20,527 nucleotides of DNA from a virus, in IMG/VR virus record IMGVR_UViG_3300047375_000682, positions 1 to 20,527 of that record. The stretch is one strand, 5' to 3'. Position 1 is the first letter of the stretch; every line of letters starts with the position of its first letter. The position numbers and the translations under genes were made by a program. Positions 6,278 to 20,527 of the stretch are shown piece by piece. The notes below the pieces were generated by a model. It did no database searches, was not told where the DNA came from, and saw only the letters and a program-made list of their open reading frames with translations.

Positions 6278-7854
6278 TGGCAACTTCCCTAGGCTATCGA
6301 ATTAATAGAAACCCTATAGCACAATCCTTTAATGTTGAGGAAGCGTGCGGGATTTATGTTACAAAAATCGATCTTTACTTTAAATCTAGAAATACATCTA
6401 GTCCCGTTTGTTTACAATTAAGGCCTATGATAAATGGAATTCCATCTAATTCTGAGATAATTCCTCAAGGTGTTGTATATGTGAATGGATCAAATATTAA
6501 TCTTTCCGATGATGCAACTGCCGTAACATCTTTTGTATTTGAAGAGCCAGTATTTTTACAGGGTTTAAATGATTACGCATTTGTTGTAATGTCAAACTCT
6601 CCGGATTGTCAAATTTGGATTGCCCAAATTGATGAATTTCTAACTGGAACAACTGCTGGAAGAGTGGCAAAGAATCCTGCGGTCGGCAATATTTTCTACT
6701 CTGCAAATGGTGGCTCATTTACTGCAGCACAAGATCAAGATTTAACTTTCGAAATTCATAGAGCAGCATTTAACACGGGAGATCTCGGTAAAGTTGCTCT
6801 TAAAAATACATCAGTTCCACAGAAACTTTTAAATGCTGATCCTATACAAACGTTTGCTGGAAGTTCAACTGTAAGAATTGCTGACGTTGGTCATGGATTC
6901 GTCATAAATGATGATGTAACAATTAGAGGTATGGATTCAGCTGCACTTATTGGTGGTATGCGTACTACCAGTATTATGGGTGCATCAAAAAACATTACTG
7001 CTGTAGATTGGACTGGATATGAAATTACTGCCGATTCTGCTGCTGATAGTGCCGGTATAGGTGGTGGATTTAATGTTTTAGCAACTAAAAATATCCCTTG
7101 GTCAACTTACTATAATAATATTCAGCTATTAGTACCAGATAAAACATCTACATTTGCTGCTATTAAAGCAACATCTAGCAAATCCTTTGCAGGTACTGAA
7201 ACAGCGTATCAAAAAGATGTAGATTTTAAAATGTCTAAGGTTCAACGAAGTGTATATACAACCAAGGCTAACGTTGTTGCTAACAATGAATTGGAAGTTG
7301 CCAATCTTGGTGCTGGTGTAAAATCGCTAGAACAAGAAGTTGTCTTCACTACTAGTGATTCTTATGTGGCACCTATGCTAGATATGCAAAGGGCTTCAAT
7401 GACATTGATTGATGCAATTATTGATAATCAAGATTCTGCTGCAACCGTTGGTTTTAATGTTCCACTAAATTATATTTCTGAAACACAACCTTCAGGAGGA
7501 TCATCTGCATCAAAGCATATTACTAGAAAAATTACAGTAGTAGAACCAGCAGTTGGTCTTAAAATTATATTAGATGCTCATAGACCTAGCGGTACTTCTT
7601 TTGATTTATATACAAGAACATGTGAAGAAGGTGTTGATATTGAAACTATTAACTGGGTATTGGCTCCTACAACGAGCAATAACCCAATCGATAATGCAGG
7701 ATTCGTATTTAGAGAGTATCAATATCTTGTAGGTAATTTAGGTGGCGAGCTTCCTGATTTTACAACATTTCAATTAAAAATTGTATTGAACTCAGTAAAT
7801 AGAGGCAGATCACCAATCATAAAGGATCTTAGAGTTATTGCATTGAGTGTATAA
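6277..7854 (+). CDS. Virion structural protein, baseplate or fibre associated
   Basis: A protein of 525 residues. The first 170 residues contain AQSFNVEEACGIYVTKIDLY, then VCLQLRPMINGIPSN, then LNDYAFVVMSNSPDCQIWIA. This beta-sandwich-like segment is one I recognise as the C-terminal portion of large baseplate-associated proteins in marine T4-like phages, where it is often fused to the DUF4815-like part; here it is a separate gene directly after that protein. The middle contains DSAALIGG and DSAADSAGIGG stretches, echoing the Asp-Ser style of neighbouring fibre proteins. The C-terminus is again beta-rich (FQLKIVLNSVNRG). No enzyme motif is seen. The start ATG shares a base with the previous stop (TAATG), so stoichiometric co-translation with the upstream protein is likely. 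Structural role is well supported by context; exact position in the particle is inference. Confidence 0.65.
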   Translation: MATSLGYRINRNPIAQSFNVEEACGIYVTKIDLYFKSRNTSSPVCLQLRPMINGIPSNSEIIPQGVVYVNGSNINLSDDATAVTSFVFEEPVFLQGLNDYAFVVMSNSPDCQIWIAQIDEFLTGTTAGRVAKNPAVGNIFYSANGGSFTAAQDQDLTFEIHRAAFNTGDLGKVALKNTSVPQKLLNADPIQTFAGSSTVRIADVGHGFVINDDVTIRGMDSAALIGGMRTTSIMGASKNITAVDWTGYEITADSAADSAGIGGGFNVLATKNIPWSTYYNNIQLLVPDKTSTFAAIKATSSKSFAGTETAYQKDVDFKMSKVQRSVYTTKANVVANNELEVANLGAGVKSLEQEVVFTTSDSYVAPMLDMQRASMTLIDAIIDNQDSAATVGFNVPLNYISETQPSGGSSASKHITRKITVVEPAVGLKIILDAHRPSGTSFDLYTRTCEEGVDIETINWVLAPTTSNNPIDNAGFVFREYQYLVGNLGGELPDFTTFQLKIVLNSVNRGRSPIIKDLRVIALSV

Positions 7855-7856
7855 TA

Positions 7857-8072
7857 ATGATTGATTATATAAAAGTTGAAGGTGCGGCCGGTCTAGTAAG
7901 AGATAGAAATACACACGCAATTATGAATGTAGATAAAAACGCAACAGAACAAGCGCGTGCCAGGAAGCTTAAGAAAATACAAGATAAGCAAGAAATTGAA
8001 GATCTTAAAAAAGATGTTAATGATATAAAAAATATACTTAATTTAATCGTGGATAAACTCAATGGCGCGTAA
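7857..8072 (+). CDS. Small coiled-coil protein of unknown role
   Basis: A protein of 71 residues. The first 25 residues (YIKVEGAAGLVRDRNTHAIM) resemble the start of small conserved proteins found among structural genes of marine T4-like phages, which read roughly VEGxxxLxRD..(S/T)xAI.N. Residues 27-68 are highly charged and follow a heptad-like pattern (Q-E-I-E-D-L-K-K-D-V-N-D-I-K-N-I-L), so a coiled coil is expected. The ATG begins two bases after the previous stop and the 3' end overlaps the next gene by 11 bases, so it is embedded in a coupled translational series. It may be an assembly or trimerisation factor for an adjacent fibre protein, but the sequence does not show which. The minus-strand frame over the same bases is a shadow. 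Confidence 0.65.
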   Translation: MIDYIKVEGAAGLVRDRNTHAIMNVDKNATEQARARKLKKIQDKQEIEDLKKDVNDIKNILNLIVDKLNGA

Positions 8073-9928: not shown

Positions 9929-11113
9929 ATGTCATTATTAATACCCGCTCCAAGACCTCTTGTAGTTGATAGAAGATATCCTACATTATATATGAATAAT
10001 AACGACACCGGTAATGTTATTAGTGGTTATGATTTTTATGGTTCTAGAACAAAGGGTGGTGCGCACGGTCTTCGTGAAATGAATACAACTGAACTTTTGC
10101 AGTTTTATAATTGGATTCGGCATCTTTATACTCGAAATCAAACAGTTACATTGTCATATGTAGGATCTGGCGGTAACCTCGGTATTATGCGTGATACTCG
10201 TTATCAGGCCGGATCAGCTACTAATCACGTAAGTTCATTTCGAAGCGCAAGCCAAACACCTAATATTAATTCACTTGAATTTGACTGGACTAAAATTCAA
10301 GTGAATTATGATACGACTGTACCTATGCCTAATATATTAAATTATGGGTGTGATTCACCGCCGCTTACTCTCGGTTCATATTCGCCTAATAGAAAGAATA
10401 TGAGAAAATTTCCAATGCTTCTACTCGCTGAATTGGTTGCAGAAGCTCTTGCTGAAATTGGTGGAAACAAATCAAATCTTACACATCCGGATATTGTAAT
10501 CGGTAGAAATGGCGGATACGCAATCATTCGTAAAGACTTTACTGTGCCTGCTACGCATGATGAAGGAGGTACTCTTACAAGTATGGGAAGAGTATTTGAA
10601 GATACAATTGCTAATAAAAACGCATATACTTCTGGTGGAATTCCGGAAACTCTAGATCAGCCACTAGCCGTTACCAATGCAAATAAATGGGATCTTTATT
10701 CTATGGATAAAGATCCAGCATATTCACCGCCGCCACCGCCAAACATGGTATACGCTGACGCAAATGGTGGCATACACGAATGGAGCCTTGCGGGCATGCA
10801 ACAGTTCTTTGAACCATATGTACAACATATTGCAGCAAATGGATATAACTCGGCGGGAGCGGGTAAGCTTCATTGGTATATTCAGAACAATATTAATGGA
10901 GTTAATTCAGGTACCGGCGGAAGCTCTTCACCGCTTGATGCAGGATCAGGCGAAGTTGAGAATGAAAGATTAGATGGAAGCTCAGCAGCGGGTTATACAA
11001 CAGGGCCGAATCAGCCAGCATCAGGCGACAACTATCGTACACAAGAGTTTCCTAATGGTACTCCACAAATTCAAAATACTTACAGTCTTAGATCATACAC
11101 TGAACCAGTTTGA
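9929..11113 (+). CDS. Probable virion structural protein of unknown family
   Basis: A protein of 394 residues with no family I recognise. The N-terminus (LLIPAPRPLVVDRRYPTLYM) and the following aromatic- and Gly-rich stretch look like a virion protein. Residues 164-175 (MLLLAELVAEAL) are a short amphipathic or hydrophobic helix, not a clear membrane segment. A run of five prolines occurs at 267-271, and the last 75 residues are rich in Gly, Ser, Asn and Gln, as in surface-exposed fibre tips or flexible tails. It follows the fibre-like paralogues after 12 bases (TTAAGGACTATAATTTATG, with AAGGA as ribosome-binding site) and belongs to the same transcript. A perfect 16-bp inverted repeat lies inside the gene at 10267-10308. 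Structural role is inferred from context and composition only. Confidence 0.5.
   Translation: MSLLIPAPRPLVVDRRYPTLYMNNNDTGNVISGYDFYGSRTKGGAHGLREMNTTELLQFYNWIRHLYTRNQTVTLSYVGSGGNLGIMRDTRYQAGSATNHVSSFRSASQTPNINSLEFDWTKIQVNYDTTVPMPNILNYGCDSPPLTLGSYSPNRKNMRKFPMLLLAELVAEALAEIGGNKSNLTHPDIVIGRNGGYAIIRKDFTVPATHDEGGTLTSMGRVFEDTIANKNAYTSGGIPETLDQPLAVTNANKWDLYSMDKDPAYSPPPPPNMVYADANGGIHEWSLAGMQQFFEPYVQHIAANGYNSAGAGKLHWYIQNNINGVNSGTGGSSSPLDAGSGEVENERLDGSSAAGYTTGPNQPASGDNYRTQEFPNGTPQIQNTYSLRSYTEPV
10267..10308. repeat. Perfect 16-bp inverted repeat with 10-base loop, inside a coding region
   Basis: The left arm TAATTCACTTGAATTT (10267-10282) and the right arm AAATTCAAGTGAATTA (10293-10308) are exact reverse complements, separated by GACTGGACTA. 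The arms encode parts of the peptide INSLEF...KIQVNY in the 394-residue protein. No T-run follows, so it does not look like an intrinsic terminator. It could fold as an mRNA hairpin or DNA cruciform; function unknown. Confidence 0.85.
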
Positions 11114-11124
11114 GGATAACGCAA

Positions 11125-11604
11125 ATGAAATTTATTAGAGCACACTTTGGAAATAATGAAAGAACAGAAGTAAAAGCATATTATGCGGATGATGAAGGCA
11201 ATCAAATACCTTATGTTATTTCTGCAGAAGATGGTAATCCTCAGTGGAAAAAACTTTTAAAACATATTACTATTGATGAATTGCACGAATCAACTCATGA
11301 GTACATTAGACAATCTCAAGAAGATTATGAAAGTGAGGTTATGGCAATTGCTAAAAAGCGCGGCATGCTTTTAGAATTTGATGAAAAAAATAGCGATTCG
11401 TACAAAAAACTTTTAGATATTATTTTTATTGAAGACGAAAACGAACAAACCGCAAAGGAATCTTTATTTGCTTTTAAACTTGCATTGTTTGAATTTGATG
11501 CTATTAAAAATTCAACTGATAGAGAAGCAAAGGCTAAAATACGAAAAGCGGTTAATACTATCGATGCTTTAGAATCAGCAATTCAAATCATAAAACAGAA
11601 CTAA
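11125..11604 (+). CDS. Small acidic protein of unknown function, last gene of the structural module
   Basis: A protein of 159 residues. A TTG at 11110 would extend it by five residues into the previous gene, but the ATG at 11125 is preferred because GAGG lies at 11112-11115 at a sensible distance. The N-terminal 40 residues (FIRAHFGNNERTEVKAYYAD, then GNQIPYVISAEDGNPQWKKLL) look like a small beta domain, which I recall only vaguely from conserved hypothetical proteins beside fibre genes in marine T4-like phages. The rest is highly charged and helical, with many Glu and Lys residues (TAKESLFAFKLALFEFDAIK), and could be a coiled coil or assembly helper. The 3' end overlaps the convergent glycosyltransferase gene by 17 bases. 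Function is not shown. Confidence 0.6.
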   Translation: MKFIRAHFGNNERTEVKAYYADDEGNQIPYVISAEDGNPQWKKLLKHITIDELHESTHEYIRQSQEDYESEVMAIAKKRGMLLEFDEKNSDSYKKLLDIIFIEDENEQTAKESLFAFKLALFEFDAIKNSTDREAKAKIRKAVNTIDALESAIQIIKQN

Positions 11605-12232
11605 ATTCCTTTGTAGACATATGTAAAAAATGACATGCATCTGATTTAGGATAGGCTTCGTCAACTATAAAGTTCCATGCTTTACCAATATCGGTATACG
11701 GCACATTATATTTTTCTACAATATATGATAAATAAATTTCGTTATTAGCAGCATATTCATTTGAATATTCTAGATTTATTTCTTTTTCCCTTTTTTGAAA
11801 TTTTATAAGATTGCAAATTTCCTTTGTTATGCCAAACACTCCCGTATTTATTACATTATGTTCAGAATTAATTCCCTCTGATTCTAACATTAGTCTTTTT
11901 CTATTAATTTTCCAAAGAGGCGCTAATGTTCTATGACATAACAATTTACTGAAATCGTGATATTCAAAAAAGTTTATTTTGGTTCTTGGTATAACATCTA
12001 AATCTAAATACAAAACCTTGTTATATTTTTGAGCTAAGTCTTCTGCAATATAAATTTTCATAAAATTTAAAGTAGTAAAATCGATTTTATTTTCGCGTTT
12101 TATATTGTAGTGTTTATATTCTGCGTCACAAAGCTCTGCATACTTTTTATGTTTTTCGATTAAAATGTCTTTGTAAGCTAACCACTGTTTATCGCCAAAA
12201 TCAATCCATATGTCAAATATAATGTTTGTCAT
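11588..12232 (-). CDS. GT-A type glycosyltransferase (GT8-like), last gene of accessory operon
   Basis: A protein of 214 residues. It begins with a GT-A style strand (NIIFDIWIDF) and has KVLYLDLDVIPRT at residues 72-84, where DLD (77-79) is the DxD motif that binds a divalent metal and nucleotide-sugar diphosphate. NTGVFG (129-134) matches the conserved NxGxxx acceptor-side loop of GT8-like enzymes, and HFLH at 201-204 corresponds to the metal-binding His near the C-terminus. At 214 residues it is a minimal GT-A domain without extra modules or membrane segments. It is paralogous to the upstream neighbour (same YLDLDVIP block and NTG loop). It overlaps that gene by 20 bases. The donor and acceptor are unknown; a role in tailoring a surface glycan or a phage protein is inference. 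Confidence 0.72.
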   Translation of the reverse strand: MTNIIFDIWIDFGDKQWLAYKDILIEKHKKYAELCDAEYKHYNIKRENKIDFTTLNFMKIYIAEDLAQKYNKVLYLDLDVIPRTKINFFEYHDFSKLLCHRTLAPLWKINRKRLMLESEGINSEHNVINTGVFGITKEICNLIKFQKREKEINLEYSNEYAANNEIYLSYIVEKYNVPYTDIGKAWNFIVDEAYPKSDACHFLHMSTKEFSSVL

Positions 12233-13001
12233 ACCAACCTTTTACGTAACTGAAATCTTTGTTTATACAATGTACAAATTTTGTATTTTTTGGTATAAAG
12301 CTCCACTTATCCATAAAGAAGTGCCAGCCAGTTTCATATAGATTCTGATATTTTAAACCTTGACCAAATAACTTATATGCAAACATCGTTTCATTATCGT
12401 AACCAAATAAATTTCTAATATCATCCGGCCAAAATTCATCATTAATAAGATCAGTCATAAAATCTATTGTTTTTTCAAAATTGCCAAAATAGTCTAGTTC
12501 GTCTAAAGATTTTTTATTAGCACCTATAATACCTGTATTAAATACAGGATGAATTTCACCTAGCATTGCGCGGGCATTCCAGTATTTTGCAAGAGGAGAT
12601 CGTATGGTATGGTGTTGTCTATGTCTGTCTTTACAGAACCAATCTTCTGACATAATTGCAATGCCTTTTGATAGATCCCAAACTTCAAAAAAGTTTTCAT
12701 TTGTCACTGGTATAACATCTAAATCAAGATATAGTATTTCTTCATAGTCTAAAGTATATAAGAGATGCAACTTATAAAAATTAATGATATTATATTCAGA
12801 TATTTCAGGACCAAACTGTTTACTAAATTCTATATAATCGTCGTCATATGTAAAATGCTTATACTCAACTCCAATCGTATCAGCATAGGCCATTTGTTTT
12901 TTTAAAAGCCAATCATAGTTGTCATTAAACTTTTTTTGGTTTTCAAAGTGAGATACAGGTTTTTGCATATCAATATAAAGACTGTATATTACTCTGCGCA
13001 T
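12213..13001 (-). CDS. GT-A type glycosyltransferase (GT8-like)
   Basis: A protein of 262 residues. The first strand RVIYSLYID is followed by an Asn/Lys-rich helix, then EEILYLDLDVIPVTNENFFE (residues 87-106) with the DxD motif DLD at 93-95. VFNTGIIGA (153-161) is the conserved donor/acceptor loop, and KFVHCINKDFSYVKGW near the C-terminus supplies the His of the GT8-type HxxxxK(P)W-like end motif. This is about 50 residues longer than its downstream paralogue; the extra length lies mainly in a charged segment (about 110-150, containing DRHRQHHTIR) and around FWPDDIRNLFGYDNE. The start overlaps the methyltransferase-like gene by 13 bases. A soluble cytoplasmic enzyme is expected since no membrane segment is visible. 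Substrates are not predictable from sequence. Confidence 0.75.
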   Translation of the reverse strand: MRRVIYSLYIDMQKPVSHFENQKKFNDNYDWLLKKQMAYADTIGVEYKHFTYDDDYIEFSKQFGPEISEYNIINFYKLHLLYTLDYEEILYLDLDVIPVTNENFFEVWDLSKGIAIMSEDWFCKDRHRQHHTIRSPLAKYWNARAMLGEIHPVFNTGIIGANKKSLDELDYFGNFEKTIDFMTDLINDEFWPDDIRNLFGYDNETMFAYKLFGQGLKYQNLYETGWHFFMDKWSFIPKNTKFVHCINKDFSYVKGWYDKHYI

Positions 13002-13594
13002 AATTTACCAATAAGTGTAAACCTAGTACCTCTATCATCTTCTACTTCATCTTCTGCTATAACAGTTGCGTTGTGTGGCAGTTGAAAATAAAACTCGTCA
13101 ATGCTTGCAACACAATTTATATGTGTGGGTATGTTATACATGTTATTAGATTGAAATGCGAAGTACGCGTTACTTTCATACAGTGCTGGTAGTTCTGACA
13201 TATTAGACATGTGTTCACATGAAGTGTTTATAATTAAGTTAGAATTTTTAATTCTATTATGGCATATAGGATCAAATACATCTTCGTTATAATATTCGAT
13301 ATTTTTATATTTTTTAAACAATCTGTTTTTAGCAATTCGAATGCACATATCTTCTAAGTCAATGCATGTTATCTTTTCGGCTTGATCTACAAATGCGGGT
13401 ATTAAAATACTTCCATACCAACTACCGAGTATTGTGATATGAGGGTTTAATAACTCTAATTTTTGTATTAGTTTAATTAAGCTTTCTTTTGACTTGAATT
13501 GATTAGGACTATAAGAATCTAATAAGTTAGTATTATGTCTAGCTTCTGCTATAATATTTTTAAAAATATCAATTCCAATATTTTTCAAAGCCAT
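12989..13594 (-). CDS. Class I SAM-dependent methyltransferase-like protein
   Basis: The best start is the ATG at 13594 (201 residues), because AAGGAGG sits a few bases before it; an upstream ATG pair at 13612 lacks this. Residues 53-62 (ITILGSWYGS) look like motif I of a Rossmann-fold methyltransferase (a degenerate GxGxG, here GSWYG). Residues 75-82 (ITCIDLED) end with the acidic pair that normally holds the SAM ribose. NSNLIINTSCEHM (117-129) matches the post-II/IV region. The N-terminal 45 residues form a helical cap. There is no nucleic-acid methyltransferase motif such as NPPY or DPPY, so a small-molecule, sugar or peptide target is more likely than DNA. It lies between glycosyltransferase genes, which suggests O-methylation of a glycan. 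Family is fairly secure; target unknown. Confidence 0.65.
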   Translation of the reverse strand: MALKNIGIDIFKNIIAEARHNTNLLDSYSPNQFKSKESLIKLIQKLELLNPHITILGSWYGSILIPAFVDQAEKITCIDLEDMCIRIAKNRLFKKYKNIEYYNEDVFDPICHNRIKNSNLIINTSCEHMSNMSELPALYESNAYFAFQSNNMYNIPTHINCVASIDEFYFQLPHNATVIAEDEVEDDRGTRFTLIGKLCAE

Positions 13595-14267
13595 TATATC
13601 CTCCTTCATCAAATGGTTTATTAATACCTAAATTCCATCCATCAAAAATACAAACAGGTATTTCTGGTCTATAGAAAAGTCTTTTTAAACCATGCCCATA
13701 TAAATTGTAGTTAAACTTATTTGTTCCATATAATCGCGAATAGGCTTCACCTTCTGGCAAATACAATAATTTATCTGACTGGTTGTAATACAAGTAACGA
13801 TCTATTCCAGCGTATTTCCATATGTAATGTTCATAGTCATTATAAAATGATTTCCATATATCGGTACAATCGCCATTCCATATCATAATAGAAGAATTAA
13901 TATCAACATCAAATTCTTCTTCTACTATTGACATATATGGTTTCCAATATGCTTTTACTAAACATAACATGTCATCTACACAATAATCTTTAAAGTGCGT
14001 AATGTCATTTTGAATTACAACATCTAGATCTAAAAATATTGTAAGAGTTCTAGTGGGATATTCGAAGAGAGTAAGTTTCCACCACCATTTTTCTAAATCA
14101 TAATCAGGCAATGGTTGTATAATAACGTTACGATCAATGCCATTTGCGTCTTCAGTATAACATATAAAATTAAAATCACACTGCAGATTTCGCTTTACCA
14201 TTTTATATAGTCGATTCACATGAAATGAATCAAACTTATTACCCCATTTTACGCACACTACGTTCAT
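13569..14267 (-). CDS. GT-A type glycosyltransferase
   Basis: A protein of 232 residues starting VVCVKWGNKFDSFHVNRLYK, an opening I recognise from small phage and bacterial glycosyltransferases of the VxCVKWGxKY type. LTIFLDLDVVIQNDI (75-89) carries the DxD motif DLD at 80-82. WWWK (61-64) and SSIMIWNGD (about 125-133) are further conserved blocks, the latter equivalent to the NSGVxxW-type loop. It is only distantly similar to the two glycosyltransferases downstream, so the operon carries at least two different subfamilies. Its start overlaps the carbamoyltransferase stop by 29 bases and its stop overlaps the methyltransferase-like frame by 26 bases. The last residues have KPFDEGGYNGFEKYW. 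No membrane segment. Donor and acceptor unknown. Confidence 0.72.
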   Translation of the reverse strand: MNVVCVKWGNKFDSFHVNRLYKMVKRNLQCDFNFICYTEDANGIDRNVIIQPLPDYDLEKWWWKLTLFEYPTRTLTIFLDLDVVIQNDITHFKDYCVDDMLCLVKAYWKPYMSIVEEEFDVDINSSIMIWNGDCTDIWKSFYNDYEHYIWKYAGIDRYLYYNQSDKLLYLPEGEAYSRLYGTNKFNYNLYGHGLKRLFYRPEIPVCIFDGWNLGINKPFDEGGYNGFEKYWN

Positions 14268-15627
14268 TTATTACCAACATATCTAATTGTGTTTTATTAA
14301 AAGTATTTATTGCATCTTCCGGAGTTTCAACAATCGGTTCCTTACAATTAAAACTAGTGTTGAGTACCATTGGTACACCAGTTGCTTGATAGAACCCTTG
14401 TATTACTTCGTGAAATTTTTCATTTTGTTTTCTATTTACTGTTTGTATTCGTGCAGTACCATCAACATGCGTTACGCCTGGAATGACATCATGAAGGTGA
14501 GACTTAACTGGTACGATACGAGACATATAAGGACTTGATTGATTAGTATTAAAGTAATACGGATAGTGTCCTTCCAGAACTGATGGTGCAAATGGACGAA
14601 AGTCTTCTCTTTGTTTAATAGTTTTATTAATAATGTCTTTAATTTTAGGATTACGTGGATCTGCAAGAATGCTACGATTGCCTAATGCTCTATTACCTGA
14701 TTCAGATTTACCATGAAACCATCCAACAATCTTACCAGCTGCTATTGCTTCACCAACTTCTCTCGGTGTAATAGGATCACCTTCATCAAAATTATATTCT
14801 TTACCAGCGTATGTTTCCGGAACATGAATGTTGTTGTTTAAGATATAGTCAGCATGCATATAAGTGCCAAGTGATTGACCTTCATCTCCTGGTGCCGGCG
14901 GTACATGTACTTTATCGTAATGCTTTGTAAACTCTTCGTTCATATATCCGTTATACGCAACGCCACCAGCAACGCAAATGTTATCACAGGATTTAAGAGG
15001 AAGAACATGCTGTTTTACAAGCTCAATGGTATGATGTTGTAATGTTGCGGCTATGTCTTCTTTTTTAGCATTTAGTAGGTAATCATAATTTTGGTTTTCG
15101 ATTGCTAAATGTATTGCAATATTATATTCACCGTAAGCTGATAATCCCATAAGCTTACCGGCACCAAGATCGCCAAACCCCAGTCTTTTCGAAAAATAAT
15201 TCCACTGTAATCCTATTTGTATTTTATTTGATAGATCAGTAATGTTACCATTCTTATCAAAGAAAACACATTTATAATTCCAACCTCTACCGTCAATAGC
15301 TAAAACATCTGACTGAGAAAAACCTGATGTTAGTAGTGCATAGACGGCATGTGATTGGTGATGATCTATATAGTATAGATTATCTTCATACCAATAATCC
15401 CACAGCTTTTTAGGTTTAAAAGATAAACACTTATGATTAAATCCCGTGTTTTCTATTCCACCGATTGTGGCAGTAATACAAAGAGGATTATTTGGTTTAT
15501 AATAATCATTAAAAAATTCTTGCGTCTTATCAAAGTTATGCTTGATACGACTATGTCTTTCTATTTGATTATGGTATTTTCCATCATATGTATTGTGATC
15601 GTGTGGTCCAATTGCTACACTAAACAT
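14239..15627 (-). CDS. O-carbamoyltransferase, NodU/CmcH/TobZ family
   Basis: A protein of 462 residues with the whole signature of the family, which transfers a carbamoyl group from carbamoyl phosphate to a hydroxyl through a carbamoyl-adenylate. The N-terminal Kae1-like part has HHQSHA (89-94, metal ligands), DGRG (112-115), GKLMGLSAYG (157-166), VAGGVAYN (219-226) and PPAPGDEGQSLG (243-254). The C-terminal YrdC-like part has the strongly conserved GKSESGNRALGNRSILADPR (306-325), FRPFAPSV (343-350), RIQTV (393-397), LNTSFN (422-427) and EPIVETPEDA (430-439). Classical members have about 570 residues; the shortening is in the N-terminal half, so it is a compact phage-type form. The start ATG overlaps the preceding radical SAM gene by eight bases. 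The substrate is probably a sugar hydroxyl, given the glycosyltransferases next door, but this is inferred. Confidence 0.93.
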   Translation of the reverse strand: MFSVAIGPHDHNTYDGKYHNQIERHSRIKHNFDKTQEFFNDYYKPNNPLCITATIGGIENTGFNHKCLSFKPKKLWDYWYEDNLYYIDHHQSHAVYALLTSGFSQSDVLAIDGRGWNYKCVFFDKNGNITDLSNKIQIGLQWNYFSKRLGFGDLGAGKLMGLSAYGEYNIAIHLAIENQNYDYLLNAKKEDIAATLQHHTIELVKQHVLPLKSCDNICVAGGVAYNGYMNEEFTKHYDKVHVPPAPGDEGQSLGTYMHADYILNNNIHVPETYAGKEYNFDEGDPITPREVGEAIAAGKIVGWFHGKSESGNRALGNRSILADPRNPKIKDIINKTIKQREDFRPFAPSVLEGHYPYYFNTNQSSPYMSRIVPVKSHLHDVIPGVTHVDGTARIQTVNRKQNEKFHEVIQGFYQATGVPMVLNTSFNCKEPIVETPEDAINTFNKTQLDMLVINERSVRKMG

Positions 15628-16432
15628 TCCCTGCTTCCATAATTTTTAATATCTGATCGTCTGTTCTTTTTTCAATATGTTCAGTACATTTCTTACAATA
15701 TTCTTCAAACTCAAATAATTCATAGTTCATCATCTTATCTATGTTTTCTTTTGTAACATCAAATTGTCTTGATCCATTAATTACCTTTTTACTGCAATGC
15801 CTAATTTTTTGAATCTCGAAATCTATTACTGGTACTTTTGGAAATGCTGCACACATTCTACGTTCAAATTCGGGTGCTTGTTCTTCTATATCATAATCAG
15901 GCGATCGTGAGTTAAAATGTTTAAACAGTGTATTGTTATGATCTACAATTGAAAGATCAAAGTTTTCGCGATACTTAAAATAGTTTGGTGTCATAATAAT
16001 TACGTTATAATTGTTTTTATCATTTTCTTCAAAGAAGTCGTAGTTGCCAAGCTTTTCAATATTATCTTCATAAAAGTCTAAGACCAAATGTTCTTGATAT
16101 ACAATTGAAGGATCTTCTAGAATATGTGGGTAGCGATTACGTACAAATGAATTTGATAACACTGATGGTACAAGATTCTTATACTTCTTAATTTCATTTA
16201 ACACTTCATCTAGATTTTTAATAAGACCCGGCTCTCCACCTAGCAATTGTATACGTGCTTTATATGGAGACAAATACTTAAGTGTATTACTTAAGAACTC
16301 CATATCTACATCAAGGTTTCTCATTTGTAAAGTCCATGCCGTACAATAATGACACGACTTATTACAAGACTTTGAGAGGTAGAAGTCTATCGCAAGATAG
16401 CCTTCTTCATTCAGCTGTTTTATGCTTTTCAT
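15620..16432 (-). CDS. Radical SAM protein with SPASM-like C-terminal cysteines (intact)
   Basis: The ATG at 16432 gives 270 residues; a TTG at 16477 would extend it further into the upstream gene and is less likely. CNKSCHYC (23-30) is the CxxxCxxC motif for the [4Fe-4S] cluster that cleaves SAM. LLGGEPGL (63-70) is the GGEP SAM-binding motif. The C-terminal part has a Cys in RRMCAAFP, a second 19 positions later in IRHCSKK, and a YCKKC pair, the same layout as in the separate SPASM-like genes upstream, so a second cluster is likely. All parts are in one frame here, unlike the two split pairs upstream. The substrate is unknown; peptide modification or sugar chemistry are both possible. It overlaps the carbamoyltransferase by eight bases. 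Confidence 0.85.
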   Translation of the reverse strand: MKSIKQLNEEGYLAIDFYLSKSCNKSCHYCTAWTLQMRNLDVDMEFLSNTLKYLSPYKARIQLLGGEPGLIKNLDEVLNEIKKYKNLVPSVLSNSFVRNRYPHILEDPSIVYQEHLVLDFYEDNIEKLGNYDFFEENDKNNYNVIIMTPNYFKYRENFDLSIVDHNNTLFKHFNSRSPDYDIEEQAPEFERRMCAAFPKVPVIDFEIQKIRHCSKKVINGSRQFDVTKENIDKMMNYELFEFEEYCKKCTEHIEKRTDDQILKIMEAGNV

Positions 16433-16715
16433 TACCACATTGCCATTTACAAACTTTATTGGGCGATTCGCCTTCAATATGTTCTTTTAATTCACGTTGA
16501 TAAAAATCACTATTTGTAATTTCAATCAACGACTGATCTTTTAAGTTCCACTTACCAATATCTACTTGTTTACTGTAATTTATAATAAACTCTGGCTGAA
16601 TTTCAACTCTCCGCGTTCTAATTTCATGATGCCAATAACAGCATGGGTATACATTACCATTTTCATCAACATAGACTTTATTATCTTCAGCCCACTCACA
16701 AACTATTTTCGCCAA
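16407..16715 (-). CDS. SPASM-like auxiliary-cluster fragment of split radical SAM protein 1
   Basis: A frame of 102 codons with no ATG near its start; a TTG at 16715 is the only plausible initiator, and the frame opens after a TAG at 16728-16730. The product holds Cys6, the pair Cys25-Cys26 (NVYPCCYW) and Cys89/Cys93 (CKWQC), the C-x18-CC...C-x3-C layout of SPASM-like domains that bind an auxiliary iron-sulfur cluster. Without a radical SAM core it should not be active alone. The core is encoded just upstream in another frame. An 8-nt tandem duplication at the junction, if reduced to one unit, makes one continuous 329-residue protein. It is therefore probably the 3' half of one ancestral gene, broken by mutation or by a sequence error, or expressed through frameshifting. 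Confidence 0.7.
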   Translation of the reverse strand: MAKIVCEWAEDNKVYVDENGNVYPCCYWHHEIRTRRVEIQPEFIINYSKQVDIGKWNLKDQSLIEITNSDFYQRELKEHIEGESPNKVCKWQCGNEKHKTAE

Positions 16716-17404
16716 TCTCTTACCGTCCTACCGTCTTCTTCATATACATCTAAGAATCTTTTATCTGTTGTTTGCTCTAATATATATTCTTTGCCTTTCC
16801 ATGTGTATTTGCACGTAGGAGTTCTTATAAAACGATTTGATTGAAAAGGCTTATGAACAATACCGCGGTCGTTACACCATTTAGTTATTTTATCAATTTC
16901 ATGTTGATTATGTTTAAACACAACAGTAAAGACTTCGGTCTTAGAATTAGTCATTGCAAATGTTTCACAGTTATTCATTACTTTACTTAGATTTGTATTG
17001 CGTCTATAATATTCATGCGTTTCTTGCGTAATACCATCCATGTCAAAAATACCCGATATTTTATTTGTTAGTGATCCAATACGCCAAAAAAATTCTTCGT
17101 CTCTTAACGATCCATTTGTAGAAAAACTAATCCAAGCTTTTGAATTATCTACTATATGCTTAAATATATCTTCAACATAAGGATTCATCATTGCGTCTCC
17201 CCATTGCCCAGAGAAATGAAATGATCTGATATGTGAATACGACTTTTCATACATATCAATCCATTCTTTTAGATCAACATGTTTTAATGGTACGTATTCG
17301 TTTCGAGTTAATCCTTTATGATTAGTTCTAGAACACTGAGGACACTTAGCATTACAATGAGTCGTAAGATCACACAGCACATTACAATTATATTTAGACC
17401 ACAT
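16703..17404 (-). CDS. Radical SAM core of split radical SAM protein 1
   Basis: A protein of 233 residues. HCNAKCPQC (16-24) gives the CxxxCxxC cluster motif with Cys17, Cys21 and Cys24. FSGQWGDAMMNP (64-75) is the variant GGEP motif that is common in phage radical SAM proteins (G-x-x-G-D-P/A style). STNGS around residue 95 and the DMDG strand further on fit the partial TIM barrel. The protein ends with RTVRDWRK just where a SPASM domain would begin, and the matching domain is encoded in the overlapping next frame. AAGAGA nine bases ahead of the ATG is the likely ribosome-binding site; the gene starts 12 bases after the previous stop. Substrate unknown. Confidence 0.82.
   Translation of the reverse strand: MWSKYNCNVLCDLTTHCNAKCPQCSRTNHKGLTRNEYVPLKHVDLKEWIDMYEKSYSHIRSFHFSGQWGDAMMNPYVEDIFKHIVDNSKAWISFSTNGSLRDEEFFWRIGSLTNKISGIFDMDGITQETHEYYRRNTNLSKVMNNCETFAMTNSKTEVFTVVFKHNQHEIDKITKWCNDRGIVHKPFQSNRFIRTPTCKYTWKGKEYILEQTTDKRFLDVYEEDGRTVRDWRK
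16721..16736. repeat. 8-nt tandem duplication at the core/SPASM junction of split radical SAM protein 1
   Basis: On the plus strand TACCGTCC is followed directly by TACCGTCT (seven of eight bases identical). On the coding strand the region reads GACGGTAG then GACGGTAA. With a single unit the frame runs VYEEDGKRLAKIVCEW without a stop, and the joined gene length (990 bases) is an exact multiple of three. Confidence 0.85.
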
Positions 17405-17416
17405 TAAATAAATCTC

Positions 17417-17845
17417 TTATAATTCTTTGATTCTTGATATATCATCTAAATCCGATGCGTCATTTTTATAAAAGCTTTCACGTTTCTGTTGTGGAGTTTC
17501 TCTTTTTTTACACGCTCGGTAACAGAATATAAAGCCAATACCATTTGAAATATTTTTTGAAAACTGTATCCATTCATCAGTAAATAGTATTTCACCTATT
17601 GAATCATAATCTTCTATTTTACTTACTGCTAATAGTTTTTGGTAATCTTCATCATGACGATTAACTTGGGTGTCCATCCAACAACATGGGATTAATTCAC
17701 CTCTATTAGTCAAAGCAAACGATGGCTGTCTGTCATCTAAGCATTTAGGATCCAGCTCATAACTCTTCCATTCAGAAAATTCAGCATCATCTACTGCAGT
17801 TCTTTCAGGATTATACAGAGCCTGTTTTTGTTTTTCATCCATCAT
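17417..17845 (-). CDS. SPASM-like auxiliary-cluster protein of split radical SAM protein 2
   Basis: A protein of 142 residues. Cys35, Cys54-Cys55 (LIPCCWMD) and Cys108/Cys112 (CYRAC) repeat the C-x18-CC...C-x3-C pattern of the corresponding fragment downstream, so it should bind an auxiliary iron-sulfur cluster. It has no CxxxCxxC motif of its own and presumably acts together with the core encoded immediately upstream. It starts at the first ATG of an ATGATGGATGA string that also contains the core's TGA stop, an 11-base overlap that would allow translational re-initiation. A GATG tandem duplication sits in this overlap; one unit less would fuse both frames into one 354-residue protein. The last 25 residues are charged and have no recognised function. 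Confidence 0.75.
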   Translation of the reverse strand: MMDEKQKQALYNPERTAVDDAEFSEWKSYELDPKCLDDRQPSFALTNRGELIPCCWMDTQVNRHDEDYQKLLAVSKIEDYDSIGEILFTDEWIQFSKNISNGIGFIFCYRACKKRETPQQKRESFYKNDASDLDDISRIKEL

Positions 17846-18485
17846 TCAAACTCAACGATAATTCAGGATTTGATGGTTTCAATGGATCGTCTTTTCCTAG
17901 CCATCTAGACGAGTTTATTATTACAAAATCTATGCCTATTTCTTTAGCCATTTTATGTGCTATTTCCATTTCGTCTTCGTTATAACTAAAAACTATAAAT
18001 TGCCAAACTGGAGTATTTGTCAAGTGTTCTTTAGCAATTTTCATTATTTCATACATTTTCCATCCATCTTGGTTTATTCTATACATAGGGCTACTATCTG
18101 GAGTTCCATCTAGAGCTAACCACCATCTTGCGTGTGGATTAGCTTTAAACGCTTTATGATACCAATTCATACCTTTTGCGGCAGAAGCATGATGCACAGC
18201 TGTACTTTTGTTTTCTTTATACAGTATTTCTAGAAACTCTACGAACTTAGGATGATGTACTGGATCAGATACTTGACCACAAAAGTTTACATGATTGAAA
18301 TGCTTTACTATCTTTGCAAAATTTTGTATTGATAGATCTTCACCTGGAACCTTGATGCCATGGGAAATAAAAGATGTGGATCTTTGACAGCGAGGACATT
18401 CTAATGAACATCGGTGTGTTATATCAACATTAATACTACGTCTAGTTAAAAAATACATTTGCTTTTTATGATTAACGCTGTTCAT
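17835..18485 (-). CDS. Radical SAM core of split radical SAM protein 2
   Basis: The ATG at 18485 overlaps the DegT stop as ATGA and gives 216 residues; an ATG at 18494 adds three. HRCSLECPRC (24-33) holds the CxxxCxxC cluster motif (Cys26, Cys30, Cys33). VNFCGQVSDPVHHP is the variant GGEP motif. WWLALDGTPDSSPMYR and VWQFIVFSYNEDE correspond to later strands of the barrel, the latter being the typical W-Q-x-I-x-x-x-N/Y-x-x-E segment. It ends NPELSLSLNDG at the boundary with the SPASM-like domain, encoded in the next, overlapping gene. It follows the aminotransferase, so the aminated sugar or another operon intermediate could be its substrate, but a peptide substrate cannot be excluded. Confidence 0.82.
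   Translation of the reverse strand: MNSVNHKKQMYFLTRRSINVDITHRCSLECPRCQRSTSFISHGIKVPGEDLSIQNFAKIVKHFNHVNFCGQVSDPVHHPKFVEFLEILYKENKSTAVHHASAAKGMNWYHKAFKANPHARWWLALDGTPDSSPMYRINQDGWKMYEIMKIAKEHLTNTPVWQFIVFSYNEDEMEIAHKMAKEIGIDFVIINSSRWLGKDDPLKPSNPELSLSLNDG
17836..17843. repeat. 4-nt tandem duplication at the core/SPASM junction of split radical SAM protein 2
   Basis: On the plus strand CATC is repeated directly (CATCCATC); on the coding strand this is GATGGATG. With one unit the frame reads LSLNDEKQKQALYNPE without interruption, and the joined gene (1065 bases from the ATG at 18485) is a multiple of three. As it stands, the duplication creates both the stop of the core gene and the ATG of the next gene. 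Confidence 0.75.
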
Positions 18486-19546
18486 GCCATACATCCAATT
18501 ACCATACTAGTTTTTAGTACTTCTTCTTCTGTTACATAGGGATGACAAGGCAAAGATAATATTGTATCACTTGCTATTTGTGCATTGCTATTTGCGTGAT
18601 AAGGTCGATAGAAAACTTTATTGCGATCAAGCGGTAAATCGTAATGAATCTTTGCACCTAACTCATCTTTAACTTCATCACGTATTTCTTTATTTTCAAA
18701 TCTTACCACAAATTTATGGTAATTATGTAGCACAGTCATATCATCTGGTTCCTGAGTTATAATAGGTATATCCTGTAATGCCTCATAATATTTATAGGCA
18801 ACTTTAGTTCTTGCCATTTGATACTCTTTTATCTTATCAAATCTAAACTCAATAAAGGCAGCATTAATATAAAACATCTTTGAATTATATCCGAGTATTT
18901 CATAGTCATCACCTTTACCATGACGTCTTAGTTTACGAGCCATATCAGCATGTTCTTTATTATCAGTAAGAATAATACCACCGCCGGAAATACCGGATAT
19001 AACTTTGTTATGATTAAAACTAAAAGAACTAATATCACCGATCGAGCCAGCATATCTACTTTTATAGATTGAACCGAGTGATTGTGCAGAATCCTCAATA
19101 AATGCTATGTTGTTTTCTTTACAGTATTTTTCTATCTCTTTTGTTTCGGTCATATTGCCAAACAGATGAGTGTAAATAAGGGCTTTAGTTTTACTCGTAG
19201 TGTTCTTTTTAATTTCATCAAATGAGATATGGTAAGAATCTAAATCAATATCACAAAATACAGGATATGCGCCTGTCATAAGGATACTAGATGCAGACGA
19301 TATCCATGAGAAATTACTCACTAGAACCTCATCACCTTCTTGGATATTTAAACACTTTAACGAATAATGTAATGCATCAGTGGCGCTATTAATTAAAACA
19401 CCATGCGACCTACCTACATATTTTGCTATCTTTTTTTCTAGAAACTCTACATTCTTTTCATTATCTTCTTGCATTACCTTATCAAAAAGTTTCATGTATG
19501 CTTCTTTATTTTCAAGATAATCTTGATTCCAACCTTCATAATTCAT
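18482..19546 (-). CDS. DegT/DnrJ/EryC1/StrS family PLP-dependent aminotransferase
   Basis: A protein of 354 residues, close to the usual 360-390 of the family that adds an amino group to keto-sugar nucleotides. Visible landmarks are NSATDALHYSL (53-63, phosphate-binding loop), EVLVSNFSWISS (73-84), EDSAQSLGS (151-159, the Asp/Gln that contact the PLP ring) and SFSFNHNKVISGISGGGI (174-191). Lys181 there is the expected Schiff-base lysine, in place of the more usual SFHxxK. RRHG and GYNSKMFYINAAFIEF (219-234) match the family's R-x-G and GxN-x-RM-x-x-x-x-A-A blocks. AGGTGA precedes the ATG. It starts four bases after the nitroreductase-like gene and overlaps the next gene. Some family members are dehydratases rather than transaminases, but those lack the lysine. 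Confidence 0.92.
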   Translation of the reverse strand: MNYEGWNQDYLENKEAYMKLFDKVMQEDNEKNVEFLEKKIAKYVGRSHGVLINSATDALHYSLKCLNIQEGDEVLVSNFSWISSASSILMTGAYPVFCDIDLDSYHISFDEIKKNTTSKTKALIYTHLFGNMTETKEIEKYCKENNIAFIEDSAQSLGSIYKSRYAGSIGDISSFSFNHNKVISGISGGGIILTDNKEHADMARKLRRHGKGDDYEILGYNSKMFYINAAFIEFRFDKIKEYQMARTKVAYKYYEALQDIPIITQEPDDMTVLHNYHKFVVRFENKEIRDEVKDELGAKIHYDLPLDRNKVFYRPYHANSNAQIASDTILSLPCHPYVTEEEVLKTSMVIGCMA

Positions 19547-19550
19547 TATA

Positions 19551-20237
19551 TCACCTATCTACAAACTTAAATATTTCTTCAAATTCTGGTTTAGTATATT
19601 CTAAAGCTTCTTCTTCAGTAAGCCTTTCATAATAATATTTTTTTGCTTTGCCTATAGTTACAATTAGTATTGGCGTAAATGTCAGATAAGGAAAATCTTC
19701 CATGTCTTCTATCTTTTTTGGTACACAAAGTGTGTATGATATATCTAAGCCTTTATCTAAAGTTATTCCAGTGATCGTATTTACTAGTAATCCTACTTCA
19801 AGTGGTATCTGTCGATTGCGTTCACAAAAGTCAGGGTCTAAGTGCTGCCAATATGAATCAGATTCTTTCCATAGTTTAGCTATATAAGGATTAGGTTCAG
19901 TCAATCTAGGTGTAATAACTAAAGTCCATGGGGCTGTTAGCAAATGCACAAGGCCGTCATTAATTCTTCTTTTTATATTACTATGAGTATTTTCACCTTT
20001 ATTTCCGTATGCATCTATGTCAACTTGTATTCTGTTTCCGTCACATAAATTCATTAATCTTTGGCTGCGTTCAGAATCAGGTCCTAAGATAAAAATTTCG
20101 TATGCAAATGCTTTTTGTTTTGATTGGCCAAACTTATAAGATTCTCTTACTATGTCTTCTATTTCTGATTCGTTCGGAACTATATTAGTATCATAATGCC
20201 AAACGTGTTTTTTATTTTTTAATGAATCTTGTATCAT
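19551..20237 (-). CDS. Nitroreductase-like flavoprotein (putative)
   Basis: A protein of 228 residues. It opens with KNKKHVWHYDTNIVPNESEI, and then FGQSKQKAFAYEIFILGPD (residues 36-54), which resembles the RxSxxNxQPYxxxVV segment that binds FMN in nitroreductases, with SKQ in place of S.xN. VHLLTAPWTLVITPR (97-111) matches the hydrophobic strand of the family, and LEVGLLVNTITGITLDKGLD (146-165) matches the typical GxxxxNLxLxAxxxGL helix. The C-terminal arm is short. The ATG at 20237 is supported by GGAG five bases upstream. Flavin-dependent redox roles fit the neighbouring radical SAM and sugar enzymes, but substrate and activity are unknown, and the key FMN residues are only partly recognisable. 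Confidence 0.58.
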   Translation of the reverse strand: MIQDSLKNKKHVWHYDTNIVPNESEIEDIVRESYKFGQSKQKAFAYEIFILGPDSERSQRLMNLCDGNRIQVDIDAYGNKGENTHSNIKRRINDGLVHLLTAPWTLVITPRLTEPNPYIAKLWKESDSYWQHLDPDFCERNRQIPLEVGLLVNTITGITLDKGLDISYTLCVPKKIEDMEDFPYLTFTPILIVTIGKAKKYYYERLTEEEALEYTKPEFEEIFKFVDR

Positions 20238-20248
20238 TCATACTCCAT

Positions 20249-20527
20249 TCATATTGCATCTATAATTGCCTCCACATTTGGCTTTTCAATTGGTCTGTCA
20301 AAATAAACTTTAGCACCTCTATTCGTAGCTTCGAATATAATCTCTTTATTATGATATTTACATTCCTGTATAATCCTTGGCGCAGGATCAAGTGTTTCTT
20401 TTGTATAAACATATTTATCAAAAATACCTAAAAGATTATCAACAGGTACAATAATATTATTGATTCGCGAATCGTAGTGTCCTATATTGTATATCATTAC
20501 TCCATGAGACTTATAATTACTTATAAC
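20249..20527 (-). CDS. C-terminal part of an unidentified protein (5' end probably outside window)
   Basis: The frame is open to the window edge. An ATG at 20497 would give 82 residues, but GGAG lies only two bases before it, too close for a normal ribosome-binding site, and the preceding codons (ISNYKSHGVMIYNIGHYDSR) read as natural protein, so a longer gene is more likely. The visible part contains NIIVPVDNLLGIFDKYVYTK, then DPAPRIIQECKYHNKEIIFE (about 50 residues before the end) and GAKVYFDRPIEKPNVEAI. The PRIIxE...KEIxF layout recalls the C-terminal donor-binding half of some surface-glycan glycosyltransferases in marine phages, but similarity is too slight to name it. It lies 11 bases upstream of the nitroreductase-like gene. 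Confidence 0.55.
   Translation of the reverse strand, partial: VISNYKSHGVMIYNIGHYDSRINNIIVPVDNLLGIFDKYVYTKETLDPAPRIIQECKYHNKEIIFEATNRGAKVYFDRPIEKPNVEAIIDAI

Follow-up and report, generated by a model that had tools for sequence, protein, structure and literature searches.

The window analysed here (the whole stretch of 20,527 nt, positions 1 to 20,527 of IMG/VR virus record IMGVR_UViG_3300047375_000682) comes from a T4-like phage related to Pelagibacter phage Mosig and carries a set of enzyme genes beside its tail-fibre genes; the phage is probably marine, as judged from the relationship to Mosig. The best joint explanation, to which we give a probability of roughly 0.47, is that the window holds the greater part of a single gene unit, located in the fibre ("host recognition") region, and that this unit encodes a phage pathway making and transferring an aminated, carbamoylated sugar, most likely onto a host surface glycan, where it would block adsorption by other phages. 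Gene content, the recurrence and order of the core, and the co-variation of radical SAM (rSAM) cores with SPASM genes are directly supported; the reactions, the product, the acceptor and the benefit are what we infer. If this is right, a dedicated sugar-chemistry pathway, of which no convincing cellular copy was found, is common to phages related to a SAR11-infecting one, and it offers an experimental way into the question of how these phages change receptors or virions.

The enzyme block and its neighbours

Thirteen minus-strand ORFs make up the block (20527 to 11588). Neighbouring ORFs either leave gaps of 4-12 nt or overlap by 8-71 nt, which bears out the tightly packed, overlapping cassette of the preliminary description. 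The features of the window are as follows.

940..2295, plus strand: T4 gp8-like baseplate wedge protein (PHROG 438 baseplate wedge, 1.1e-76; Pfam Gp8, 2.9e-8)
2306..7854, plus strand: gp10L and S3, two ORFs for VrlC-type proteins (both match Mosig_00100, putative VrlC, at 30-32% identity)
9929..11113, plus strand: S7, probable virion protein judging by position (homologue near S8 in Mosig, 25% identity)
11110..11604, plus strand: S8, convergent neighbour (Mosig has a homologue, 35% identical, in the corresponding position)
11588..12232, minus strand: GTa, GT8 glycosyltransferase, last gene of the block (Pfam PF01501, 2e-6, above cut-off)
12213..13001, minus strand: GTb, GT8 glycosyltransferase (Pfam PF01501, 2.9e-7, above cut-off)
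12989..13612, minus strand: MT, probable SAM methyltransferase (profile of 22 relatives reaches PDB 1dus, MJ0882, 7.2e-6)
13569..14267, minus strand: GTc, glycosyltransferase (PHROG 1962, 3.8e-11; no Pfam match)
14239..15627, minus strand: NodU/TobZ-type O-carbamoyltransferase, 462 aa (Pfam C-terminal domain 2.3e-67, N-terminal domain 2.4e-18)
15620..16477, minus strand: RS3, core rSAM enzyme, 285 aa with a TTG start (Pfam 1.2e-6, just under cut-off)
16407..16715, minus strand: SP2, stand-alone SPASM protein, 102 aa, proposed partner of RS2 (Pfam SPASM 2.5e-9, above cut-off)
16703..17404, minus strand: RS2, rSAM core, 233 aa (Pfam PF04055, 6.4e-10, above cut-off)
17417..17845, minus strand: SP1, stand-alone SPASM/twitch-type protein, 142 aa, proposed partner of RS1
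17835..18494, minus strand: RS1, rSAM core, 219 aa, without a SPASM domain of its own (Pfam Radical_SAM 0.0021, below cut-off)
18482..19546, minus strand: DegT/DnrJ/EryC1/StrS aminotransferase (DegT), 354 aa (Pfam PF01041, 4.9e-77)
19551..20237, minus strand: NTR, divergent nitroreductase-family protein, 228 aa (at profile level only)
20249..20527, minus strand: X, C-terminal 92 aa of a 275-aa protein, cut by the contig end (complete in another contig as L004:8471-9298)

The inventory given earlier stands in part. The three rSAM enzymes are present as cores with the CxxxCxxC motif, while 17417-17845 and 16407-16715 are separate SPASM-type genes (auxiliary Fe-S cluster) and not parts of rSAM enzymes. 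Three glycosyltransferases are likewise found, namely the two GT8 enzymes and GTc, and the 92-aa fragment at 20249-20527 is corrected to the truncated end of the GT-B-fold protein X. The aminotransferase and the carbamoyltransferase hold at the Pfam level; DegT best matches glutamine-scyllo-inositol transaminase (PDB 7b0d, 1.7e-57) and also matches 2-deoxy-scyllo-inosose aminotransferase (PDB 2c7t, 4.4e-35), and the carbamoyltransferase has both TobZ/NodU Pfam domains, matches PHROG 1601 (7.8e-101) and NovN, GdmN and TobZ in the PDB (9.5e-51 to 2.3e-46), and belongs to a family in which 175 of 198 ORFs (at least 400 aa and >300 bits) contain the HxxSHA...DGxG motif. The nitroreductase-like and methyltransferase assignments are recovered for the families rather than for the window proteins themselves: NTR alone matched no Pfam, PHROG or NCBIfam model, and a profile of 25 relatives reaches the PDB nitroreductase 3gfa (4e-7); MT has no Pfam match and an NCBIfam match far below cut-off.

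The X fragment matches the L004 ORF without a mismatch along its whole length (100% identity), and directly upstream of the identical block in L004 lies a gene for a tail-fibre-assembly-type protein. A PDB sequence search with X returned nothing useful. The AF2 model of the L004 protein (pLDDT 95.0) has the GT-B fold, with PimA as its best VIA match (Z 15.5, rmsd 3.9, 245 aligned), followed by BshA (Z 15.1) and, as one among many, T4 DNA alpha-glucosyltransferase (Z 13.9); a glycosyltransferase role is predicted from this model. An rSAM identity for X is ruled out by the fold and by the absence of CxxxCxxC from five aligned members.

The block was previously described as converging on Ser-rich fibre genes. 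The immediate neighbours S8 (11110-11604) and S7 (9929-11113), the latter matching no PHROG or Pfam model, contain only 5.5% and 7.9% Ser, and it is the next two genes (13.7% and 12.5%) that are Ser-rich. Of the host recognition cluster, the window reaches only the VrlC-side border and stops short of the neck genes. Genes typical of an O-antigen cluster, for sugar-nucleotide synthesis, a flippase or a polymerase, were not recognised in a scan of 20 window proteins; the host could supply these functions.

Recurrence and co-variation in virus contigs

Relatives of the block were collected in 118 groups, gathered by matches to DegT, RS1, RS3 or X, a choice that biases co-occurrence upwards; three collection scans kept the best 80 of 303, 80 of 456 and 80 of 210 relatives. 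Since the first carbamoyltransferase HMM also caught low-scoring rSAM/SPASM proteins, >300 bits was used for co-occurrence. The order analysis used >60 bits. The recurring core comprises X, DegT, RS3 and the carbamoyltransferase: DegT occurs with RS3 in 93 groups, RS3 with the carbamoyltransferase in 89, and X with RS3 in 77. In 83 of 87 measurable groups, DegT, RS3 and the carbamoyltransferase keep the same order on a single strand. The earlier one-pathway view is thus supported for the core, and the scattering named beforehand as its refutation was not seen for these three genes; the accessory genes are more variable, and for them the view holds less well. The block is more than a chance assembly, because independent records carry it again.

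Sequence distances point the same way for part of the core, with correlations of 0.76 for DegT-RS3 (n=93) and 0.74 for X-RS3 (n=77), and weaker ones for X-DegT (0.52) and DegT-carbamoyltransferase (0.30), suggesting that parts may be exchanged separately. It has to be considered whether the genes are simply assorted cargo in an island, without a shared product. Such islands are described as hypervariable (PMC7029224), and the correlations of the accessory rSAM cores with DegT (0.30), of NTR with RS3 (0.25) and of the carbamoyltransferase with DegT agree with that notion; however, the conserved core order and the co-variation of RS3 with both DegT and X make it distinctly improbable.

The rSAM enzymes have an unusual layout. 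The CxxxCxxC motif is present in every near-full-length ORF of the three families (RS3 205/205, at least 250 aa; RS1 111/111, at least 195 aa; RS2 148/148), and RS3 is 60-78% identical to its relatives; judging from an alignment with them, RS3 more likely starts at the ATG of residue 16 (16432) than at the TTG. In the window and in 81 of the 118 groups, rSAM core and SPASM domain are encoded by separate ORFs, while some relatives are fused (e.g., a single 360-aa ORF in L005 that matches both RS2 and SP2). Five Cys residues of SP1 (C35, C54, C55, C108, C112) are invariant in 44 sequences, 28 of which match Pfam SPASM at E<=0.01, the window SP1 not among them. Foldseek gave no match to the SP1 model at E<=0.001, and the only two VIA matches, both weak, were to the auxiliary domain of BtrN (Z 3.2 and 2.8; for the better, rmsd 2.8 and 71 aligned), the BtrN domain being the only one matched of 30 chains; PDB sequence searches with SP1, the RS1 profile and the fused L005 protein yielded nothing useful.

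Distances among the rSAM cores co-vary with those among neighbouring SPASM genes (r 0.80), whereas partner swaps within loci average 0.57 and none of 500 reached 0.80. This suggests that a bare rSAM core and a separate SPASM subunit form two-subunit enzymes, although linkage may contribute to the correlation. A frameshift joining the two genes is ruled out by overlaps in two phases and by reversed gene order in some groups, and the commonest overlap, 4 nt, is further evidence against it. We tentatively propose a pathway, found almost exclusively in viral records, in which two-subunit rSAM enzymes, encoded in either gene order and each pairing with its own subunit, are exchanged independently of the core and diversify an amino-carbamoyl sugar. 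Our literature search found no description of split SPASM subunits; if true, this would be a natural case of a detachable auxiliary-cluster subunit, useful for asking what the cluster does.

Cellular genomes supplied only three RS3 relatives, of which two (L248 and L249) adjoin S8/S7 homologues and are clearly phage contigs; the third (L247, 7.6 kb, with cassette-type genes alone) is probably phage. The data do not support a recent acquisition of the core from SAR11 chromosomes: RS3 was found in one of 197 genomes of the order, on a contig already seen, and RS1 in none of the 197, a blank that taken by itself would prove nothing; the same RS1 query matched 3/3 cassette-bearing records.

Candidate products and acceptors

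In the proposed pathway, an rSAM enzyme with an auxiliary Fe-S cluster would oxidise an alcohol of a sugar or cyclitol to a ketone, which DegT would convert to an amine. The other rSAM/SPASM pairs and nitroreductase-type flavoproteins could make further redox changes, the carbamoyltransferase and methyltransferase would decorate hydroxyls, and the GT-B protein and GT8-type enzymes would attach the product to a host surface glycan; the receptor would thereby be altered and adsorption of other phages prevented. Glycan tailoring, as first suggested, is supported by enzyme content and location. In 54 of 93 core groups the fetched stretch includes structural or fibre genes; none was recognised in the other 39. 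Among the roles offered at that time host-surface remodelling fits best; the host surface glycan is a more likely acceptor than fibres, DNA or a peptide.

The rSAM profiles do not single out sugar oxidation, since RS3 lies closer to viperin-type enzymes (NCBIfam 2.4e-8, far below cut-off; PDB 7n7i, 0.004) and to PDB 9dfn (7.8e-5) than to BtrN (0.042, not significant), and since the best NCBIfam match of RS1 and RS2 is a maturase family, below cut-off. Viperins, among the nearest named families of RS3, modify a nucleotide. The block could also make a small molecule (aminocyclitol-like or nucleotide-derived) or a modified peptide. Its mixture of rSAM, DegT, carbamoyltransferase, methyltransferase and glycosyltransferase genes is natural-product-like, and the best structural match of DegT is a scyllo-inositol transaminase. 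Such a product is nevertheless improbable: a scan of 20 window proteins recognised neither a cyclitol synthase nor a transporter, the block has at least four glycosyltransferase-type genes, and the gaps in the window cassette (all at most 12 nt) leave the peptide product mentioned earlier no room for a precursor gene between the cassette genes.

Alternatively, the pathway might glycosylate the phage's own fibres or baseplate proteins, with late synthesis of the sugar and its attachment no later than assembly. In favour of this, virion genes face the block in convergent orientation, and the distances of GTb and RS3 correlate with those of S8 (0.73 and 0.71; n=41 each). Asp-Ser is enriched in S1, S5 and S6 (13, 22 and 13 against shuffle means of 2.7, 4.8 and 3.0). 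However, the motif does not follow the cassette, and fibre modification therefore gains no support from it: enrichment is at least 2-fold in 10 of 25 measurable cassette groups and at most 1.1-fold in another 10, including Mosig (8 against 14.3 expected) and two groups (L117 and L044) that carry both GTb and GTa, with little sequence there. Asp-Ser repeats as a general glycan target, strong in the window and absent in Mosig and others, were thus rejected. Promoter motifs fall on both sides. Against controls that were single-base shuffles, and in groups that are related to each other, T4-late-type motifs precede 45 of 63 unit starts (shuffle mean 21.6, max 33), a pattern that fits virion-protein modification just as well, and a sigma70-type pair precedes the first gene in 22 of 63 (mean 4.0, max 10), in keeping with expression ahead of the late stage. 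On balance, fibre modification appears somewhat unlikely.

Comparison with known systems

A TobZ-type phage carbamoyltransferase is also found in systems that make 5-carbamoyloxymethylcytosine from 5-hydroxymethylcytosine (PMC8670742), and together with the fold of X, which T4 DNA alpha-glucosyltransferase (Z 13.9) and many other proteins also have, this raises the possibility that phage DNA is modified (e.g., carbamoylated or glycosylated pyrimidines). In the available text of that study, modified contigs pair the carbamoyltransferase with a thymidylate synthase homologue, whereas in unmodified contigs it occurs with glycosyltransferases and other genes. No such thymidylate synthase homologue was recognised among the 20 window proteins scanned, and none was found in 11 of 12 long cassette-bearing records; a PF00303 match occurs in one (with two internal stops) and not in Mosig, although the records may be fragments, while RS3 is present in all 12. 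DNA modification is accordingly very improbable.

The pairing of rSAM enzyme and DegT resembles the logic of BtrN/BtrS in butirosin biosynthesis, which, as far as the consulted part of PMC9012708 goes, likewise combines a twitch-type rSAM enzyme, whose auxiliary cluster has four Cys ligands, with a DegT-type aminotransferase; BtrN differs in being one chain, and the window block has no recognised cyclitol synthase. The T4-like Campylobacter phages CP220 and CPt10, in the portion of PMC2853527 available, also carry an exchangeable cluster, with five rSAM genes and a group-transfer enzyme, and genes annotated in CP220 as nucleotide-diphospho-sugar transferases add to the likeness. They have an amidinotransferase in place of the carbamoyltransferase, and their best match to RS1 is 27% identical, inside a 342-aa single chain.

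The outline of surface remodelling is not new, as PMC7029224, in the part available, already proposes it for the hypervariable rSAM/glycosyltransferase islands of T4-like phages. The pelagimyophage host recognition cluster described there has fibre genes and GT8, as does the window with its two Pfam GT8 genes, and its placement between VrlC and neck genes is found in Mosig. The core pathway and the separate SPASM genes are not defined in the available part of that account, and the word "carbamoyltransferase" is absent from the whole paper.

The best named relative is Mosig (EXVC030M, MT647606), the only relative for which a SAR11 host is known. Its block (60990-71305) lies within the fibre region, between the VrlC gene (74619-80756) and the neck genes (37983-39614). 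Pelagibacter phage HTVC008M (Mosig's host, same collection) has no match to RS3, X or RS1, and the block is therefore not needed to infect that host. Mosig differs from the window in having one rSAM core/SPASM pair rather than two and no NTR gene directly before DegT, a second annotated nitroreductase coming later. It shares, in similar order, the nitroreductase-like gene, X (annotated there as a molybdenum cofactor enzyme), an RS1-type core with SP1, DegT, RS3, the carbamoyltransferase, MT and GT8-type genes; X, RS1, DegT, RS3 and the carbamoyltransferase are 47-61% identical between the two, and in both the block converges on S8 and the VrlC-side genes.

Relatives of the cassette in phages and cellular genomes

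The window, 20,527 bases long, comprises an entire virus record. T4-like virion genes lie on its plus strand and code for a gp8-like wedge protein, for VrlC-type proteins and for Ser-rich proteins; on the minus strand, thirteen ORFs are tightly packed between 11588 and the contig end. The enzyme list of the preliminary description was correct in substance and needs corrections (e.g., the SPASM ORFs are separate genes and not parts of radical SAM (rSAM) genes). Asp-Ser dipeptides occur at 4-5 times expectation in three virion-type proteins of the window (3-926, 8062-9237 and 9257-9916; counts of 13, 22 and 13 versus shuffle means of 2.7, 4.8 and 3.0), and are also high in L004, L005, L181, L013 and L014 but not in Pelagibacter phage Mosig.

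A near-identity search with the window gave no match among 50,697 phage records. Protein searches of phage records with RS3 (an rSAM core) and X (the GT-B-fold protein cut off at the window end) returned one match each, Mosig (EXVC030M), for which the isolation host is given as HTCC1062 (PMC7892664), while RS1, another rSAM core, matched Mosig and, weakly, three Campylobacter phage records. HTVC008M, another HTCC1062 myophage in the searched collection, did not match RS3, X or RS1. The Mosig block resembles the window in gene order, converges on homologues of the virion-side genes S8 and S7, and lies between VrlC and neck genes. Its X-family member (Mosig_00083, L003:21563-22429) is annotated as a molybdenum cofactor biosynthesis enzyme; the rSAM motif is missing from this family, and the structure model of the L004 member has a GT-B fold. 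Searches of IMG/VR yielded 8 relatives of the aminotransferase DegT in 7 loci, as well as 303 relatives of RS3, 456 of RS1 and 210 of X, with 80 kept from each of these three scans. Locus L004 contains the complete window block at 100% protein identity and continues beyond the window end with a further nitroreductase-like gene, full-length X and, just upstream on the opposite strand, fibre-type genes.

Cellular genomes were searched by pattern scans and genome samples, which rare cellular copies could escape. Among 84,980 bacterial and archaeal species, a scan for RS3, limited to sequences that first matched either of two short patterns, found three relatives:

L247: Pelagibacter MAG, 7.6-kb contig, cassette-type genes only
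L248 and L249: Rhodobiaceae MAG and gammaproteobacterial MAG, respectively, cassette beside S8/S7 homologues

The latter two contigs are clearly phage. Amongst 398 sampled genomes of one phylum, X was found in one, on the same Pelagibacter contig, and RS1 had weak matches in three, all within longer single chains (open frames, 394-451 aa); by our own reading, one of these chains starts with a SPASM-like Cys pattern, N-terminal to the rSAM match.

Conservation of the core

Shared 31-mers placed the loci, the window and Mosig among them, in 118 groups. Strand normalisation was not applied in this step, for which reason the window is separate from L004 and one or more groups are duplicates. Because the sample was drawn by cassette genes, the frequencies hold for cassette carriers and not for phages at large. 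DegT and RS3 co-occur in 93 groups, RS3 and a carbamoyltransferase scoring >300 bits in 89, and X and RS3 in 77. The order DegT-RS3-CARB (carbamoyltransferase) on a single strand was observed in 83 of 87 measurable groups, the exceptions being CARB-DegT-RS3 (2 groups), DegT-CARB-RS3 (1) and genes not all on one strand (1). Distance correlations were strongest for DegT-RS3 (0.76) and X-RS3 (0.74), lower for X-DegT (0.52), RS3-carbamoyltransferase (0.43) and the probable methyltransferase MT with RS3 (0.40), and lowest for DegT-carbamoyltransferase (0.30) and RS3 with the nitroreductase-family protein NTR (0.25); RS3 versus S8 gave 0.71. Genes that recur next to the cassette but are missing in the window include clusters resembling GDSL/SGNH esterases (56 groups; e.g., L102:1121-1963) and PP-loop ATPases (32 groups; e.g., L056:6381-7118), both with weak, sub-cut-off similarity, and a 294-aa nitroreductase-family protein (40 groups; e.g., L157:6990-7874). 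Among the papers listed by searches of openly licensed PMC literature, none was found to describe a conserved core of X, DegT, RS3 and carbamoyltransferase, or SPASM subunits as separate proteins.

Possible split radical SAM enzymes

Stand-alone SPASM ORFs (<175 aa) are present in 81 of the 118 groups; of these 243 ORFs, 163 lie immediately after an rSAM core, 39 lie immediately before one, 26 are flanked by cores on both sides and the other 15 have no adjacent core. Overlaps occur in two phases and most often measure 4 nt; the ORFs are therefore separate, probably translationally coupled genes and are not joined by a frameshift. Fused forms exist in some relatives (e.g., the 360-aa ORF of L005). 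Distance matrices of cores and subunits correlate at 0.80 over 87 pairs, compared with a maximum of 0.15 in 500 random re-pairings and a mean of 0.57 (maximum 0.76) when partners were swapped within the 19 loci holding at least two pairs; the cores of the 72 pairs accompanied by DegT and RS3 correlate at 0.30 with DegT and 0.39 with RS3. This co-variation, the strongest new point of the analysis, supports, short of proof, a physical two-subunit rSAM enzyme, although co-moving neighbour genes would correlate too. SP1, the proposed partner of RS1, has five invariant cysteines; the auxiliary cluster of BtrN is described with four Cys ligands (PMC9012708). A Foldseek search with the SP1 structure model (pLDDT 84.9) had no hit at E<=0.001; the only match of the model, to the BtrN auxiliary domain, is weak, with a Z at a level that may reflect a common arrangement only.

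Expression, proposed role and known systems

A gene was taken as a unit start if it was the first one following a strand change or a gap of >150 nt; largely through this definition, 63 of 66 measurable starts lie at a strand change. In the 90 nt preceding each of the 63, a T4-late-type motif (<=1 mismatch) was found at 45 (shuffle mean 21.6, maximum 33) and, by our own count, a sigma70-type pair (<=2 mismatches) at 22 (shuffle mean 4.0, maximum 10). In 16 of the 22, also by our own count, the pair has a 17-nt spacer and starts 34-35 nt ahead of the start codon, with 5-6 nt between the -10 box and ATG; this implies a nearly leaderless message, and in 15 of the 16 the first gene is X. Near-consensus promoters of this close-set kind lie upstream of X in L126, L129, L188 and others; L004 has a sigma70-type match at 11 of 12 positions, 11 nt before the first ATG. 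Judged from these motifs, the cassette may be used both early and late.

The enzyme families suggest sugar or cyclitol chemistry, in which an rSAM enzyme with an auxiliary cluster would oxidize an alcohol, DegT would transaminate the resulting ketone, and carbamoylation and methylation would precede transfer of the product. Among solved structures, a scyllo-inositol transaminase is closest to DegT, and sugar aminotransferases such as QdtB come next; however, RS3 matches viperin-type enzymes and 9dfn better than BtrN, which counts against this proposal. We tentatively favour remodelling of the host surface, given that the cassette lies in the fibre region, is rich in GT8 genes and has sigma70-type promoters, and that neither a DNA nor a peptide product found support. 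This reading matches the proposal of the pelagimyophage authors for such islands (PMC7029224), where rSAM-rich variable modules are mentioned; in T4-like phages, such modules have been published for Campylobacter phages (PMC2853527). An apparent parallel module is present in Campylobacter phage CP220, where several annotated rSAM genes are accompanied by a gene for a putative glycine amidinotransferase and by two others with notes of nucleotide-diphospho-sugar transferase domains.
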